Assembly (NCBI RefSeq): GCF_004766125.1
Contig: NZ_SJSA01000001.1
Coordinates: 124,001-188,000 of the forward strand
Direction of reading: 5' to 3'
Length of the DNA stretch: 64,000 bases
Source: Duncaniella freteri
GTDB lineage: Bacteria > Bacteroidota > Bacteroidia > Bacteroidales > Muribaculaceae
Shown here piece by piece: positions 17,097 through 64,000 of the stretch. Under the pieces are notes generated by a model that saw only the letters and a list, made by a program, of their open reading frames with translations, was not told the origin of the DNA and searched no databases. Numbering within the stretch: position 1 is the first letter of the stretch; the number at the start of each line of letters is the position of its first letter. The position numbers and the translations under genes are program-made.

Positions 17097-20000
17097 TTAG
17101 AGTGTGAGATTGATACCGAAAACAAACTGCTTATAGGTAGGGAATGCGTCAGAACCGCCGGTCTCCGGATCAATACCGTCAAGTTTGCTGTCATTCATAA
17201 TGATCCAGGGATTGTAAGCGGTAAAGTAGAGGCGCATACGCTCAACAAGAGCTTTCTGAGTAAGTTTGCCAGGGAGGGTGTAACCGAAGGTCACATTCTT
17301 GATCTTGGCAAACGATCCGTCAACAACACGAAGCGAAGGCATCACCTTGCTCTGCTTGTCACCTGTACCGGGACGCGGATAATATGCACCCTGGTTATCC
17401 TCTGTCCAGTAGTCCACACCTGAAATCTGGTTAGTGGTACGTGAATTCTTGGCATCATAGTATCCAAGCAGGTTGCTTTGAATAGTCTGACCGAAACGTC
17501 CCATCATGAATACGGATAGGTCAAAATCCCTATATTTGAATGTGTTGTTAAGACCAAGTATCCAGTTGGGATTCTGATGTCCGAGAATCATACGGTCATT
17601 GTCACCATATGCATGAACACCGCCATCACCATTATTTTCTATTGTCTCAATCTTGATGTAGCCAGGCTCTACCTTATATTTCTTCATCAGTTCAGCGTCA
17701 TCGTCAGTCCCCCAGATGCCGGCATACTTCCATCCATATATCGACTTTATAGGAGCACCTACGAAAAGGCTCTCGCTGATAAGATTACCACCGGGAAGTT
17801 CCTTGATCCTTTCCTTGCTCCATGTGGCGGTAAGAGTTGTGGACCAGTTGAAGTCCTTGCTTACAATGTTACGGCTGTTGATAGTGAATTCAAAACCATG
17901 ATTCTCCGTCCTGGCGAGATTTTCCCAACGTGAAAGCGGGCTACCCCATCCAGTCACACCGTCTGTGATGGGCACAGTACGTTTGTAAAGAAGACCTTTG
18001 GTCTCTGTCCTGAACCATTCGATAGATCCGTCAATACGATTGTTAAGCACACCGAAATCAAGACCGACATTCCAGTTGTAAGATTTCTCCCATCCGAGCG
18101 TGCTGCCGGCATAAGTGCCTGTGTACTGAGCGAACTGTACAGGCTTCCCACCTACCGTCACACCACCATTGGGATAGAGATATGCCTGGGTCTGAGTAAC
18201 ATAAGCACCTGTGCCACCTGAGTTACCAGTGATACCGTAGCTGACACGGAGCTTTGCATTGCTGAGCCAGTTGCGTGTGCTTTCCATAAACTCCTCATCG
18301 GAAAGACGCCATGCCACAGCTCCTGCCGGGAACGAATCCCACTTGCTGCCCTCGGAGAACCAGCTCACACCGTCCCAACGATTTGAGAACGTGAGCAGAT
18401 AACGCCCCTTATAATTATAATTCACACGGAATGCATATGACATCTTCTGAGTGCGAGAATAGTCAGAATAGGTGTACTGACTTCCTGAGCCTGAAAGAAG
18501 ACGATGGAACTGCCAGGTGTCAACATCAAATCCGCCGCTACCGGCAATAGTCTGTTCGTTAGTGTTCTTGTTATACGATGTGATGAACTGCGCACCGAAA
18601 GAATGGTCCTTTATGTCAGCATTATAAGAGAGTATATTTTCCCAGGTATATGCCCAATTATTATTGTGGGTTTTCTGAGCGAAAGGACTCTTGGCATACG
18701 AAGGCTGATTGGCTGTAGCCTGAGCTCCCCAGTACTGTCCTAAACGACTGTTTGACAGGATCGCACTGATCTGGCTACGGAACTTGAATCCCTTGAACGG
18801 AGTTATATCCAGATAACCTATTGAATTGATATAGGTCGACTTGGTGTTGTTGGCAAATTGATTTTCAATAAAGTCACCGAGAGGAGAATCCTGATTATCA
18901 ATAAAACGATGATTGAGATTGCCATCCTCATCGAAAGCATCTCCGAGAGGGAAAGCCGTAAGAGATTTAGTGAATGTGTTCTTGACACCACGGTCATGAT
19001 CGGAATAAGTAAGGTTGCTTGTAAAACCGATAGTCGCATACTTATTGATCTCCATATCCGCATTCAGGCGAAGAGTGTAACGGTCAAGCTCGTCATTAGG
19101 AAGGAGACCTTCCTCCTTAGAATATGATGTAGATGCGAAAATGCGAGCCTTCTGTGTACCGCCGCTCACAGAAAGAGCATACTTCTGAGTGGTGGCACGC
19201 CGACCTGATGCAAGATCAACCCAGTCAATCCACTTTCCCTCTTCAAGAGCAGAGGTATATTCTGGGTTCCCCATAAGTGTAGCATTGTCGGTTGGATAAT
19301 CACCGTTAATATATTTGTATGCTTCACGATGATAAGCCAGCCACTCGTCGCCGAGCATACCATGCTTATAGTTGACATCGCCGCTGAAGCCGTAGTAGGC
19401 ATCAAAATTCACAATCGCCTTGCCCTCCTCTCCACGCTTGGTGGTAATGATCACAACGCCATTGGCTCCGGCTGAACCATATATAGCAGTCGAGGATGCA
19501 TCCTTCAGGACATCGATCGATTCGATATCACTGGGATTGACCTGGCTGTAGCTACCAGGAATACCGTCAATGATAAAAAGAGGCTCATTGCTTCCATAAA
19601 TTGAACGTGAACCACGAAGCAGAATATTGACATCGCTTCCGGTCTCACCGCTTGACTTGGTGATGTCCATACCGGCAATCTTGCCTTGAAGAGCTTCCAT
19701 CACATTGTTGGTCGGAGCGACAACAACATCGGAATTCTTCATAGAGGAAACCGCACCGGTCAAATCGCGACGACGCACGGTTCCGTAACCCACAACCACT
19801 ACCTCATCGAGCAATTCGCGGCTCTCCTTAAGGGTGACATCAATCACGTTACGCCCACCCACAGGAATTTCCTGAGTGGTGTAACCTACATAACTAAATA
19901 CTAAAGTAGCTGAGGGGGGGGTAGTTAGCGCATACTTGCCATCAATATCGGTAGCAGTCCCATTCTTGGTCCCTTTTACCATTACAGTTGCGCCAATGAC

Positions 20001-20162
20001 GGGCTCGCCCGTCTCATCAATCACTGTTCCGCTAACGGACTTGTCCTGTGCAGATGCCATAATGGCAAACACAGCAAAAAGCACCGAGAAGCAGATACGC
20101 CCAAAGCGAGAACAAAGCTCACTTCGAGAACTCTTGATTTTAAGAGATTTCTCGTTTCTCAT
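17097..20162 (-). CDS. SusC/RagA family TonB-dependent outer-membrane transporter
   Basis: A 1021-residue SusC protein. In order: signal peptide ending MASAQ (about residue 39), a carboxypeptidase-regulatory-like domain (SGTVIDETGEPVIGATVMVK), the TonB box region ELLDEVVVVGYG, a plug domain with the SusC signature VLKDASSTAIYGSAGANGV, and a long beta-barrel ending in LTL. It imports glycan oligosaccharides with energy from TonB and pairs with the SusD downstream. An in-frame run of eight C codes for Thr-Pro-Pro within the first domain (19914-19921 on the plus strand). The leader carries a tandem 10-base repeat, and a good promoter is present. Confidence 0.95.
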   Translation of the reverse strand: MRNEKSLKIKSSRSELCSRFGRICFSVLFAVFAIMASAQDKSVSGTVIDETGEPVIGATVMVKGTKNGTATDIDGKYALTTPPSATLVFSYVGYTTQEIPVGGRNVIDVTLKESRELLDEVVVVGYGTVRRRDLTGAVSSMKNSDVVVAPTNNVMEALQGKIAGMDITKSSGETGSDVNILLRGSRSIYGSNEPLFIIDGIPGSYSQVNPSDIESIDVLKDASSTAIYGSAGANGVVIITTKRGEEGKAIVNFDAYYGFSGDVNYKHGMLGDEWLAYHREAYKYINGDYPTDNATLMGNPEYTSALEEGKWIDWVDLASGRRATTQKYALSVSGGTQKARIFASTSYSKEEGLLPNDELDRYTLRLNADMEINKYATIGFTSNLTYSDHDRGVKNTFTKSLTAFPLGDAFDEDGNLNHRFIDNQDSPLGDFIENQFANNTKSTYINSIGYLDITPFKGFKFRSQISAILSNSRLGQYWGAQATANQPSYAKSPFAQKTHNNNWAYTWENILSYNADIKDHSFGAQFITSYNKNTNEQTIAGSGGFDVDTWQFHRLLSGSGSQYTYSDYSRTQKMSYAFRVNYNYKGRYLLTFSNRWDGVSWFSEGSKWDSFPAGAVAWRLSDEEFMESTRNWLSNAKLRVSYGITGNSGGTGAYVTQTQAYLYPNGGVTVGGKPVQFAQYTGTYAGSTLGWEKSYNWNVGLDFGVLNNRIDGSIEWFRTETKGLLYKRTVPITDGVTGWGSPLSRWENLARTENHGFEFTINSRNIVSKDFNWSTTLTATWSKERIKELPGGNLISESLFVGAPIKSIYGWKYAGIWGTDDDAELMKKYKVEPGYIKIETIENNGDGGVHAYGDNDRMILGHQNPNWILGLNNTFKYRDFDLSVFMMGRFGQTIQSNLLGYYDAKNSRTTNQISGVDYWTEDNQGAYYPRPGTGDKQSKVMPSLRVVDGSFAKIKNVTFGYTLPGKLTQKALVERMRLYFTAYNPWIIMNDSKLDGIDPETGGSDAFPTYKQFVFGINLTL
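19914..19921 (-). repeat. Run of eight C in the SusC coding strand
   Basis: Eight consecutive C (G on the plus strand) encode part of Thr-Thr-Pro-Pro-Ser about 80 residues into SusC. The frame is open as read. A change of one C would stop the protein early, so the tract is a possible slippage site. Confidence 0.8.
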
Positions 20163-57464: not shown

Positions 57465-58910
57465 ATGAAAGCTATCTGCTTCTATTTTCAGATTCACCAG
57501 CCATTCCGTCTGAAGAGATACCGTTTCTTCGACATAGGCAACGACCACTATTACTATGATGACTTCGCCAACGACGATATCATCACCCGCATAGCCGAGC
57601 GCAGCTATATACCGGCAGCCCAAAGCCTGCTCAAGATGATTGAGACCACCAAAGGAGCATTCAAATGCGCAATCTCAATCACCGGCACAGCACTCGAACA
57701 ATTCGAGCTATACGTGCCCGAATTCATTGACTTACTCAAGAAACTCGCAGCCACAGGATGTGTGGAATTTCTCGCCGAGACCTATGCCCACTCACTCGCA
57801 TCACTCGCTGATCCTGAAGAGTTTGCCAATCAGGTAAAAGTTCATGACGACAAAATCAAAGAGCTTTTCGGACAGTCGCCTAAAGTGTTACGCAACACCG
57901 AGCTGATATATTGCGACGATCTCGCCCCTCAGATACTTGAGATGGGCTATAAAGGCGTGATCACCGAAGGAGCCAAGCACATACTTGGATGGAAGTCTCC
58001 CAACTATGTATATTCAGCGGCATCAGCCCCGAAACTGAAAATCATGCTGAAGAACGACAAGTTCTCAAGCGACATCTCCGACCGCTTCGCCAACACATCC
58101 TGGGACGAATATCCTCTGACTGCCGACAAATACATCTCATGGATAGCATCGACTCCGGAGGACCAACAGATCATCAACCTGTTCATGAATCTTGAAGTGT
58201 TCGGTGACTTCCAGCCACGCGAGACAGGAATATTCCAGTTCCTTGAAGCCCTCCCGCGCTTCGCTGCTGAAAAGGGCATCGAATTCTGGACCCCTTCTAC
58301 AGCAGTAAGCAAGCTCAAGGCTGTGGACTCTCTGCCGGTGCTCCACCCCATCAGCTGGGCTGACGAAGCACGCGATACCAGCGCATGGCTTGGAAACAAA
58401 CTTCAGAAAGAAGCTTTCGATAAACTCTACAGCGTAAGTGAGCGCGTGCGTCTATGCGAGGACCGCCGTCTGAAACAGGACTGGTATTATCTCCAGGCTG
58501 CCGATCATTTCTTCTACATGTCTACAAAAAACATGCATGACGGTTCGGTACATTCGCAATTCTCGCCATATGACACACCATTCGATGCATTCACCAACTA
58601 CATGAATGTGCTTGCCGACTTCATTGTTCGCGTAGAAGCCCAGTACCCCATGAGCATCGACAACGAAGAACTCTCCTCGCTCCTGACCACCATACGCAAT
58701 CAGGAGCGCGAGATTGAGACACTCAACAAGGAAGCAGAATCAATGCGCAAGAATATCGAGCACTTTAACGAGGAACACCTGCTCCGCGAAAAAGAGACCG
58801 AGAAACCCGCTGCGCCCAAGACGAGAAAAACAGCCTCAAAAACAAAAAAAGAGACTGAGCCCAAGAAAGTAACTGCAAAGAAAGCTACAGCAAAGAAAAA
58901 AGCTGAATAA
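57465..58910 (+). CDS. GH57 alpha-amylase/branching-type enzyme with a Lys/Ala-rich tail
   Basis: A 481-residue cytoplasmic protein. Residues 1 to about 390 are a GH57 catalytic domain with YFQIHQPFRLKRYRFFD, EFLAETYAHSLASLADPEE and NTELIYCDDLAPQILEMGYK (the nucleophile region differs in detail from GH57 alpha-glucanotransferases). The C-terminal part is unusual: a coiled coil (about 405-445) followed by a 35-residue tail of Lys, Ala, Thr and Pro (KKVTAKKATAKKKAE at the end) like a histone H1 tail. It is the third gene of the glycogen operon, after a 44-base gap, and ends at a strong terminator. Confidence 0.9.
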   Translation: MKAICFYFQIHQPFRLKRYRFFDIGNDHYYYDDFANDDIITRIAERSYIPAAQSLLKMIETTKGAFKCAISITGTALEQFELYVPEFIDLLKKLAATGCVEFLAETYAHSLASLADPEEFANQVKVHDDKIKELFGQSPKVLRNTELIYCDDLAPQILEMGYKGVITEGAKHILGWKSPNYVYSAASAPKLKIMLKNDKFSSDISDRFANTSWDEYPLTADKYISWIASTPEDQQIINLFMNLEVFGDFQPRETGIFQFLEALPRFAAEKGIEFWTPSTAVSKLKAVDSLPVLHPISWADEARDTSAWLGNKLQKEAFDKLYSVSERVRLCEDRRLKQDWYYLQAADHFFYMSTKNMHDGSVHSQFSPYDTPFDAFTNYMNVLADFIVRVEAQYPMSIDNEELSSLLTTIRNQEREIETLNKEAESMRKNIEHFNEEHLLREKETEKPAAPKTRKTASKTKKETEPKKVTAKKATAKKKAE

Positions 58911-59814: not shown

Positions 59815-60036
59815 ACCTAAAATCATTTTTTTCTTTCCGCTGTCGGATGTTTTAACAGATTTTTATTCCAAAAAATTCATACTATTCAAACTTTTTACAA
59901 CATTTTCTTGTTTTTTACATTTTTTATTCATTAATTTGCAATACAGATACCAAATCGTGTAATCGCAGTGTCTAACATATGAACCATATTTAGCCAATTT
60001 TCAACACATTATAAACCAATCCAAAAAATCACAAGC
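59815..60036 (+). promoter_or_regulatory. A+T-rich leader and promoter region of the second SusC
   Basis: Long T and A runs precede the gene. TTAATTTG at 59933-59940 is a near match to the -7 box. No exact promoter, operator or repeat is recognised. Confidence 0.35.
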
Positions 60037-63000
60037 ATGAGTAAAATCGGAATGCGGTTTGCAGCATCTTTAGCTGTTATATGCCTGTATATGGGGGGGT
60101 AAACCTCATTGATGCACAGACAGTTACAACAGCAGAAAGCACAAAAAACAATGTGTACCGCGGTGTCGTGATTGACGAAGAAGGAGAACCACTACCCGGA
60201 GTGTCAGTCATTGTTGTAGGGAAAAAAGCTATAGGCACAGCCACTGATGTAGACGGAAACTTCATATTCAACTATAGCGAACCTAAAGCCAGGCTAAAAT
60301 TCACATATGTGGGCATGAAGCCTCAGGAAATACGTGCCACAGCCGGCAACAAGGTGACAGTACGTCTTGAGAACGACGCAACCACCCTTGGTGAAACCGT
60401 TGTGAACGGCATATATACACGTAATATCGAGAGCTTTACAGGATCAGTCTCCACATTCCGTGGCGATGACCTCAAAGCTATAGCCCCACAGGGCATTCTT
60501 AAAAGTCTTGCCATACTCGACCCGTCGATCGTGATGACCGACAACACTCAGTTCGGCTCCAACCCGAACCAACTTGCCGACATATCCATTAACGGCAAAA
60601 TGAACGTACAGGCACTATCTGCCGAATATGAGACTGACCCCAACCAGCCTCTATTCATTCTTGACGGATTCGAATCAACACTACAGACTATCAGCGACCT
60701 CAATATGGACCGTGTAGAAAGCATCTCTGTATTAAAAGATGCCTCAGCAACGGCTATATACGGCTCCAAAGCAGCAAATGGTGTTATCGTAGTTGAGACA
60801 AAGAAACCATCGGCAGGACGTCTGCGCCTCACATACAACGGATCAATACAGGTGGGATGGGCTGACCTCAGTGACTACAATCTCATGGACGCCAATGACA
60901 AACTAAGATATGAGCTCCTTTCCGGCGAATATGACGGCGACAAAGGTCTTGATGAGAACGGACTCCCAATAGAAGAATACCAGCGAAGCAGATACTTTGA
61001 ACGTCTCCGCCTTGTTGAGTCAGGTCGTGACACATACTGGATGAACGAACCTCTGCGCACAGCATTCACCCAAAACCACAATGTATATATTGATGGTGGA
61101 GATTCTGCATTCCGCTATGGTGCCGGACTCTCCTACGGAAAAACACAAGGTGTCATGAAAAATTCTGACCGAGAAGTGATCAACGGCAACATCACTCTTT
61201 CTTATCGCGTGGAGAATTTTAATTTCACTAATCAGACAACGATCAACAACACTACTGCCAACAACGAAACCGTATCATTCAGCAACTTTGCCCGAATGAA
61301 CCCTTTCTACACAAAATACAATGAAAACGGAGAGATTCCCAAATACGTATTCAGTGAAGGTCTCGGTGCCACTCCGATATGGAATCCATTATGGGACTTC
61401 ATACAGAACAGCTTCAATAAAAGCTCCAATACAGGCATTACTGACAACTTCCAGTTCGAATGGCGAGCCACTAATCAACTGCGCCTGCGCGGCAGTTTCC
61501 AATATAGCCTGAATAAACTCAACACTGAGAGATTCATATCACCGAATGAGACCAGCCAGGCTACAAAATCCGAGCTGGACCGAGGACAATACACTGAAGG
61601 AAACACCACCAGTACAAGCTATAACGGCAGGATCAATGCAACATATGGCGCATTTTGGGGTGACCATACATTCAATGCTGTTGGTGGTATGCAATTCTCA
61701 CAAAACTCATCCAAGAACAGTACATTCTCAGCCAAAGGCTACCTGTCCGACAAGTTCTCCAACCCCAACTTCTCGGTAGGATATCCCGAAGGTGGCAAAC
61801 CATCGTCAGCCGATACAAAGAGCCGCAGTGTCAGCTTCTATGCCAACTTGAACTATGCCTACGCAATGCGCTACCTGCTCGATTTCAACCTGTCGCGCAA
61901 CGGAGCATCACAGTTTGGTATAGATGATCCGTTCACCAATACCTGGTCGGTGGGTTTAGGATGGAACGTCCACAATGAGAAATGGTTCCATAACAACAAG
62001 TACATCTCATACCTCAAACTGCATGCCTCGTATGGTAACCCTGGCAACCAGAACTATGACGCCAAACTCGCATCAAGCATATACAACTACACCAACGAAT
62101 ACATCAATCCATTCGGTCTTTCAGCACTTGTCAGCCAATGGGGCAACAACTGGCTCGAATGGCAGAAAACAAAGACATATAATATCGGTTTGACCACCAC
62201 CATGTTCGAGAACAAACTGTCGTTCAATATTGACTATCAGATACGCAAGTCAAATCCCATGCTCGTGAGAATTCAGCTCCCGAGTTCGACCGGCACAACC
62301 ACTGCTCCCATGAATATCGGAGGCACCGACAACCGTTCAGTCTCTGTGGCTGCCACATATTACATATTACGCAAAGGCGACCTCAACTGGTACGTAAGTG
62401 CAAACCTCAACCACAACACCACCGACTACTACAATATCGGTAAGACTCTTGAAAAATACAACAAGGACGGAAAGGATGAAGCAGGAAAGACTGAAGGAAG
62501 AAATCTCAGCAAGGCTCTCACACGAATGTACGACGGTGCAAGCACCACCGGACTCTATGCAGTGCGTTCGGCAGGCATCGACCCGGCAACAGGCAACGAG
62601 GTGTTCATACGCAAGGACGGCACTTACACATTTGAATGGGACCCCGAGGATGAAGTCCTGGTAGGAGACACCAACCCCAAATTTACCGGATCATTCAGCA
62701 CTTCGCTCCTATATAAAGGCTTCTCTTTCGGAGCAGCATTCACCTACCGTACAGGTGGAGACGTTGTCCTTTCCACACTTATGGATAAAGTCGAGAACAT
62801 AGGCAAAGACCAGATCAAACAGAACCAAGACCGCCGTGCCCTCACCGACCGATGGAAAAAGCCAGGTGACATAGCCAAATACAAGCGCATCGATGACCAC
62901 AGTGTATCTCATGCCAGCAGTCGATTCATTGCCACTGAACACACTATCGAATGCTCATCCATCAACATAGGATACCGCACCACTCAATGGCCGTTCCTGC

Positions 63001-63137
63001 GCACAATGGGTATGACATCAATCGACATCCGTGCTTACATGAACGACATATTCCGCATATCCAACATCAAAGAAGAGCGCGGCATCGACTACCCGTTCCA
63101 GCGTTCATTCTCTCTTTCCATCGGACTGGGCTTCTAA
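60037..63137 (+). CDS. SusC/RagA TonB-dependent transporter, off-frame at a poly-G tract
   Basis: From ATG 60037 the sequence encodes a classic signal peptide start (MSKIGMRFAASLAVICLYMG) that ends at TAA 60100 directly after a run of seven G. The long frame, open to 63137, begins only within the tract. With eight G the two join as CLYMGGVNLIDAQ, giving a signal peptide cut before QTVTTAES. Beyond it lie the regulatory-like domain (RGVVIDEEGEPLPGVSVIVV), the plug with ISVLKDASATAIYGSKAANG, and a beta-barrel ending LSIGLGF. An internal ATG at 60081 is in the long frame but gives no export signal. The SusD partner follows after 28 bases. I read it as a phase-variable transporter caught OFF. Confidence 0.88.
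60093..60099 (+). repeat. Seven-G tract inside the SusC signal-peptide coding region
   Basis: Seven consecutive G, 56 bases after the start codon. Addition of one G (or loss of two) restores the frame between signal peptide and transporter. Confidence 0.9.
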
Positions 63138-63165: not shown

Positions 63166-64000
63166 ATGAAAATGAAATTCAATATATTACCCATAGCCAT
63201 CACCGCTGTGCTCGGAGCCGGAATGTCATCATGCAACGACTGGCTCAGAGTAGATATGGAGGACAAAGTGATGGAAAAAACCATGTTTAGCGACTACAAA
63301 GGCTATTGCACCGCTCTCAACGGAATATATATCGGCATGAACGGCCTATACAGCAATCAGCTGTCAACAGGAGCAATTGATGTAATGGCACAATACTACA
63401 ACGTGACCGAAAACAACAGTCATTCCAAACGACTTTATGCCGGATACAAATATAACGATCCTTCAATAAAGACATCCATCGAAAACATCTGGCAGACACT
63501 GTATAACCTTATCGCTAACACAAACGTGGTGATAGAACACACCGAGACAGGAGATGTCCTGAATGAAAAACAGAGAGGCATCATACGCGGAGAAGCATTC
63601 GCCCTCAGAGCCTTCCTTCATTTCGACCTGTTACGCCTGTTCGGACCCATATACAGCACATCACCCGACCAGGTATGCATCCCATATCAGGAATCATCAC
63701 AACGCGTCATACAACCCCTCCTCCCTGCCAGTGAAGTACTCGGAAAAATCATCAATGACCTGAAAGAAGCAGAGTCATTGCTGTCACAGTATGACCCGAT
63801 CATCACGGAAGGTGTAGGCAACATTCTGACCAATGACGACGGCGTATCGACCTACGACACATCATTCCGACAGCTCCGCCTCAACTACTATGCGGTAGAG
63901 GCGATGCTCGCTCGTGCTTATCTGTGGAAAGGCGACAAAACCGAAGCATACAAATATGCCAAGACCAATGTCATTGACAAAGTAACCACCGAAGATCTTG
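63166..64000 (+). CDS. SusD/RagB family lipoprotein, 5' part
   Basis: The frame opens at ATG 63166 and is uninterrupted to the window end (278 codons seen). The start is a lipoprotein signal, with the Cys in GAGMSSCNDWL (about residue 23). The SusD N-terminal core follows: YCTALNGIYIGM, IENIWQTLYNLIANTNVVIE, EAFALRAFLHFDLLRLFGP and YYAVEAMLARAYLWKGD. It is the surface glycan-binding partner of the SusC just upstream. If that SusC is off, this gene may still be translated from its own start. Confidence 0.92.
   Translation, partial: MKMKFNILPIAITAVLGAGMSSCNDWLRVDMEDKVMEKTMFSDYKGYCTALNGIYIGMNGLYSNQLSTGAIDVMAQYYNVTENNSHSKRLYAGYKYNDPSIKTSIENIWQTLYNLIANTNVVIEHTETGDVLNEKQRGIIRGEAFALRAFLHFDLLRLFGPIYSTSPDQVCIPYQESSQRVIQPLLPASEVLGKIINDLKEAESLLSQYDPIITEGVGNILTNDDGVSTYDTSFRQLRLNYYAVEAMLARAYLWKGDKTEAYKYAKTNVIDKVTTEDL

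Follow-up and report, generated by a model that had tools for sequence, protein, structure and literature searches.

Poly-G tracts at the 5' ends of SusC genes in Duncaniella freteri as candidate switches of slipped-strand phase variation

A SusC gene split at a G7 tract

The window, by which we mean the whole 64-kb stretch of DNA analysed, spans positions 124001-188000 of contig C1 in a Duncaniella genome (G000; 3.55 Mb in 5 contigs, 99.93% complete). Towards its end lies a SusC gene whose signal peptide and body are read in different frames:

59908..59938, + strand: promoter-like element with no tract (TTG at 59908-59910, TTAATTTG at 59931-59938, spacer of 20), a putative promoter
60037..60102, + strand: signal-peptide reading frame, OFF as sequenced (ATG 60037-60039, 21 codons, TAA 60100-60102)
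60081..60083, + strand: internal ATG in the body frame, which would yield SusC without a signal peptide (ORF of 1018 aa)
60093..60099, + strand: G7 tract, the proposed slipped-strand switch, with the TAA at 60100 immediately 3'
60117..63137, + strand: frame of the SusC body, counted from the predicted mature Gln, with CarboxypepD_reg and Plug domains
63166..64000, + strand: SusD partner, running past the window end (L163, 667-2220), with SusD-like_3 and SusD_RagB matches

The peptide encoded from the ATG at 60037 begins MSKIGMRFAASLAVICLYMGG, and the product in this frame amounts to 21 residues. An earlier note on this DNA had described a signal peptide of 21 codons put out of frame by the G7 run and followed by a complete 1000-residue SusC, with the homopolymer as the only lesion. 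The description of the signal peptide and tract holds base for base; the body is indeed intact, its actual size being 1006 codons from the Gln at 60117. These codons run uninterrupted in the other frame until the stop at 63135-63137, and no lesion other than the tract was found among them. The proposal that eight G would fuse the frames was also reproduced: a script using fixed peptide anchors scores the gene as OFF and returns 5 or 8 as the tract lengths joining start and body. The cleavage site before the mature Gln was placed by eye.

The gene belongs to the SusC/RagA TonB-linked outer-membrane proteins, with a TIGR04056 score of 568 bits against a cut-off of 368 in a profile search, Plug and CarboxypepD_reg domains, and a SusD neighbour. 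Its closest solved chain is RagA (6sli, E 1.1e-60), and peptides are what RagA imports. The operon consists of SusC, SusD, DUF4843 and PKD_2 genes, with an MscS-like channel next, and the last three follow the paralog L028 in identical order. Upstream lie a SprT-like gene and, beyond it, a GH57 protein (57465-58910). A glycan substrate was considered and found unsupported, the four-gene operon containing no carbohydrate-active enzyme; the label 'nutrient transporter' would be a family-level prediction.

G or C runs of at least 7 occur only twice in the window, as this G7 and as a C8 in another SusC gene; among its 26 long ORFs, GGG accounts for 138 of 1102 glycine codons and GGGGGG for none of 81 Gly-Gly pairs. 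Given this rarity, the tract is more than a chance occurrence. Inverted repeats of 14 or more were sought between 59500 and 60400 and gave no pair, so that the flanking repeats of invertible DNA are missing at this locus. What is present is a homopolymer between a start and a body frame, where gain or loss of one unit would be predicted to change expression, as in a contingency locus.

In-frame counterparts and relatives

A protein search identified a near-identical counterpart in frame: P0001 has 1033 aa, the length expected of the joined frames, and is found on 7 contigs (the longest of 10,878 bases). It differs from the window SusC at one position of the 1006-residue body (D603Y) and at two in the signal peptide. 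A second pair involves L088, the SusC gene beside C1:335234, which is OFF at a G7; its counterpart P0121 is an in-frame protein of 1075 aa, encoded on a single contig of 4,400 bases, with 3 differences in 1031. At the protein level, both OFF and ON states thus exist among close strains, and the DNA behind P0001 and P0121 presumably carries G8.

A genome-contig scan retrieved 28 relatives, the best 70% identical, and none provided DNA of the same species; the comparison includes one genome per species and hence no tract variation within a species or clone. The earlier note had raised the possibility that orthologous SusC genes carry a G tract at the signal peptide. This is so for three of the eight relatives with at least 65% identity:

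L028: own paralog, 68% identity, G9, OFF
L006: G7, ON
L007: G7, ON

The D. freteri protein closest to L028 has 91.6% identity with it. The other five relatives (L002, L003, L004, L005 and L008) lack a tract, and their signal peptides are unbroken. A loose Gly-Gly pattern at the tract site fits 31 of the 120 database relatives listed. Elements resembling the promoter-like element at 59908..59938 also lie upstream of L028, L004, L005, L006 and L007.

Tracts throughout the genome

Genome G000 contains 21 distinct tracts of G≥8 (15 with eight bases and 6 with nine, the maximum), 33 tracts of exactly 7 G, and 29 SusC genes above the TIGR04056 cut-off. We defined linkage as a position from -450 to +250 around the start of a SusC HMM match, with a mirrored window at the 3' end as control. 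The association of tracts with SusC 5' ends is non-random: nine of the 21 G≥8 tracts are linked (expected 0.12, P 2e-15), as are 3 of the 33 G7 tracts (expected 0.19, P 9e-4), and the mirrored 3' windows contain no tract of either class. In all, 12 of the 29 SusC genes have a G/C tract of 7-9 at the 5' end, 7 coding and 5 upstream. The frame script assigns the coding tracts as follows:

OFF: window gene (G7), L028 (G9), L088 (G7), L048 (C8)
ON: L098 (G7), L050 (C9), L032 (C8)

Tract-free SusC genes behave differently. All 17 show an in-frame ATG and a hydrophobic stretch, and none is frameshifted at its start, against 4 of the 7 coding-tract genes (Fisher P 0.003), all four of which are broken at the tract.

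L032 is the second tract-bearing SusC gene of the window:

17097..20162, - strand: SusC gene L032, ON (domain and TIGR04056 matches, frame script)
19914..19921, - strand: C8 (coding strand), in frame, in the N-terminal CarboxypepD_reg domain of L032

The similar gene L048 (C1:1689376) is OFF at a C8 in the same place.

Three of the upstream tracts (C1:581300, C1:635664 and C1:1270452) lie in the spacer of a strict -33/-7 promoter. Another, the C8 at C1:1631848, was read by eye as a poly-C spacer, and a G9 some 350 bases ahead of a SusC gene, at C1:1343137, fits no clear promoter spacer.

Several other observations were made on these tracts. T[AG] directly follows 18 of the 21 G≥8 tracts on the G strand (16 times as a stop triplet), whether the tract lies in a promoter or in a gene on either strand, compared with 9 of the 30 G7 tracts examined. 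This may reflect a tight stop in the OFF state, a binding site or a mutational context. G8, C8 and C10 tracts also occur in genes that by eye resemble surface-polysaccharide enzymes (L031, L055, L056 and L057 in G000, L194 in the related genome G011), including glycosyltransferases, a NeuA-like cytidylyltransferase and acyltransferases, and these are possibly further switches. L049 (G000:C1:1913595) has an in-frame G8 just past the lipobox-like start of a lipoprotein. A SusC-like gene at G000:C1:2217314-2220507, with two matches split by a single TAG, is apparently a true pseudogene.

Coding tracts in other genomes

In five relatives, linkage was scored for G≥8 tracts only, from HMM match starts and among the SusC matches listed, with these numbers of SusC 5'-linked tracts:

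G002: at least 4 of 32
G003: at least 1 of 14
G011: at least 15 of 25
G025: at least 1 of 21
G026: at least 2 of 13

Among the same matches, control tracts at the 3' end numbered 0 in every one of the five genomes. Linkage in G003 and G025 is weak, at one tract or more apiece. For G011, 0.28 linked tracts were expected against the 15 or more found, which fall in 14 SusC genes, one having two; 14 of the 41 SusC genes listed for this genome therefore carry a G≥8 tract at their 5' end. Ten of the 14 have coding tracts, of which 9 are OFF and one is ON (L169); L007, with its G7, is also ON. Two of these genes, L167 and L168, are near-duplicates and not independent, and the frames of L167-L169 and L172 were anchored upstream on an N-terminal peptide instead of an ATG. 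Taking G000, G002, G011 and G026 together, 15 of 21 coding-tract SusC genes are OFF and 6 are ON.

All nine OFF tracts of G011 exceed an ON length by one base. Chance slippage in both directions would not predict such a one-sided deviation, which counts against slippage. A G≥8 search favours long tracts, and a G7 search in G011 added only one gene, which is ON. Mutation bias or consensus bias may lie behind the pattern.

Two sources of evidence were discarded. P0182, the sole near-identical match to L167, starts 3' of the tract, and its contig equals G011:C11 in size, so that it is uninformative on other strains. Gene-caller starts were not used as evidence of OFF states: those of P0063-P0068 fall after the signal peptide, as does that of P0070 (on a 455,146-base contig like that of L007), though L007 is in frame. 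The longest run that we read, a G12, lies about 300 bases 5' of a SusC gene in G011 (L177, G011:C15:464258).

A second form in promoters

Tracts in promoter spacers were surveyed with the strict pattern TTGGGGGGGN{9,15}TANNTTTG, using the reversed pattern as control. Within the genus, 12 of 27 genomes have it, at 27 places altogether, and the reversed pattern occurs at none. Across the family, 37 of 197 genomes, from 12 of 29 genera, contain it at a total of 63 places (2 places for the reversed pattern); the remaining 160 genomes lack it. A pattern for the whole order, GGGGGGGGTAA, present in 86 of 159 genomes and 9 times in G000 against once when reversed, was set aside as unspecific.

The distance from TTG to TANNTTTG is 19 or 20 at 47 of the 63 places. 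The G run measures 7 at 14 of them, 8 at 39, 9 at 8, and 10 and 11 at one each. Of the 27 genus loci, 24 could be parsed: nine lead into an ORF with a SusC-like N-terminus, as judged by eye; most of the remaining next ORFs look secreted, and three loci have no convincing gene. Orthologous genes from two species (L123 and L124, in G020 and G021) have near-identical promoters that differ as G7 versus G8. For sister genes of the window SusC, then, the tract appears to sit between the -33 and -7 elements at what would be a working spacing. By analogy with the -33/-7 promoter of Bacteroides (PMC12632263) and with a promoter homopolymer of Neisseria (PMC6389960), spacer length would be expected to set promoter strength.

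Competing explanations

Assembly or sequencing error, with the true tract in frame and the gene always on, was one of two alternatives named in the earlier note, and we regard it as unlikely. Homopolymers are error-prone, and the uniform +1 deviation of the nine OFF tracts in G011 is of the kind that an error would leave. Yet eight G8/C8 tracts in non-SusC genes of G000 (L031, L040, L046, L049, L054, L055, L056 and L057) fall within open frames of 203-706 aa, and the C8 of L192 in G011 within one of 393 aa. The OFF states of G000 occur at lengths 7, 8 and 9, deviating both ways, the absence of frameshifts in the 17 tract-free SusC genes points in the same direction, and error leaves the placement of tracts at SusC 5' ends unexplained.

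Recoding has still less in its favour. Ribosomal -1 slippage on G-GGG-GGG, or slippage of RNA polymerase, would supply some full protein from unchanged DNA, and the G7 does match a slippery heptamer in the start frame. Against this very improbable reading, downstream RNA structure is ordinary (z -0.42 and -0.54), the G9 of L028 would require the opposite shift, and the DNA-derived translations of P0001 and P0121 are already in frame.

Fixed loss of function, that is, a pseudogene broken by chance in a homopolymer, would account for a sequenced copy whose main start yields no exported protein. We give it hardly any weight: the fixed G7 with further disabling mutations that it calls for is contradicted by the unbroken body of 1006 codons and by the near-identical in-frame P0001, and three more SusC genes of G000 are broken at the tract only. 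Equally improbable is a G run acting mainly as a protein-binding or structural element whose length is not the signal, for although promoter flanks are conserved and T[AG] follows 18 of 21 G≥8 tracts across promoters and genes, coding tracts set the reading frame with all length classes present, and promoter tracts range from 7 to 11.

Discussion

The earlier note proposed slipped-strand phase variation as a candidate for one gene. Our results support the proposal and enlarge it, with many SusC genes involved and a second form in promoters. Weighing against it are the lack of a tract in five of the eight closest relatives, the 160 of 197 family genomes devoid of the promoter pattern, and the weak SusC linkage in G003 and G025. 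Under the mechanism we envisage, the G7 tract would be a contingency locus in which slipped-strand mispairing during replication adds or drops one G now and then, a change that should be reversible within a clone. With a tract of 8 (mod 3), reading would continue from the signal peptide into the body and give an exported transporter; with 7 or 9 G, translation would stop soon past the tract and exported SusC would be absent, the sequenced genome representing the OFF state. In this translational form the tract sits inside or just past the signal peptide, or within the N-terminal domain. In a probable transcriptional form it occupies the -33/-7 spacer, where length changes would shift the spacing. 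The design is repeated in many SusC genes, both in this Duncaniella and in some relatives, and its benefit may be bet-hedging, either in uptake or in how the surface is exposed to phages or antibodies.

We hold with considerable confidence that SusC genes here undergo multi-locus slipped-strand phase variation, translational and probably also transcriptional. With more reserve, we lean towards a broader picture, a SusC phasome in Duncaniella and some other Muribaculaceae, in which a large share of the transporter repertoire would be under independent slipped-strand control at two levels, promoter and coding, giving each cell a different random subset of transporters. Such control would take the place of the invertible promoters known from Bacteroides, or act alongside them. 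If so, each strain of a common mouse-gut genus would be a mixture of transporter subsets, which would bear on diet response, on phage and antibody sensitivity, and on how 'pseudogenes' from isolates and MAGs are interpreted.

DNA inversion is the form of phase variation usually attributed to gut Bacteroidales. A 2025 Bacteroidales review uses neither 'slipped' nor 'homopolymer', and the passages on Bacteroides consulted in a 2025 phase-variation review (12 of 16 places) concern inversion or mechanisms left unnamed. Among the open-access papers listed, judged by listing and abstract, none reports slipped-strand SusC control, or phase variation by homopolymers in Muribaculaceae or elsewhere in Bacteroidales. 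A poly-G promoter spacer is familiar from porA.

The Tsr0667 shufflons of Bacteroides fragilis (PMC4747536), which place SusC/SusD under invertible DNA, likewise phase-vary SusC-family proteins within Bacteroidales, but through site-specific inversion with inverted repeats, whereas inverted repeats of 14 or more are absent from the window locus. Meningococci switch two TonB-dependent receptor systems, HmbR and HpuAB, by poly-G tracts (PMC3786947). Those are Neisseria systems for iron/haem uptake at one or two loci, whereas here the proteins are SusC/RagA of Bacteroidales, many loci are involved, the signal peptide is a frequent site of the tract, and promoters carry a parallel form. In meningococcal nspA (PMC6389960), a poly-A tract likewise lies upstream of the core -10/-7 element and its length sets expression; our tracts consist of G, lie in the -33/-7 spacer of Bacteroidales promoters and occur genus-wide, with an effect on expression that we predict. 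The phasomes of Campylobacter jejuni and Helicobacter (PMC4965091, PMC2823697) similarly comprise many poly-G/C tracts of 7 or more in or before surface genes, whereas SusC transporters are the main class of genes at the tracts here and the host is a gut commensal. The mechanism is known in other phyla; what sets the present case apart is where it would operate, the family that it targets, its concentration on SusC and the two parallel placements of the tract.
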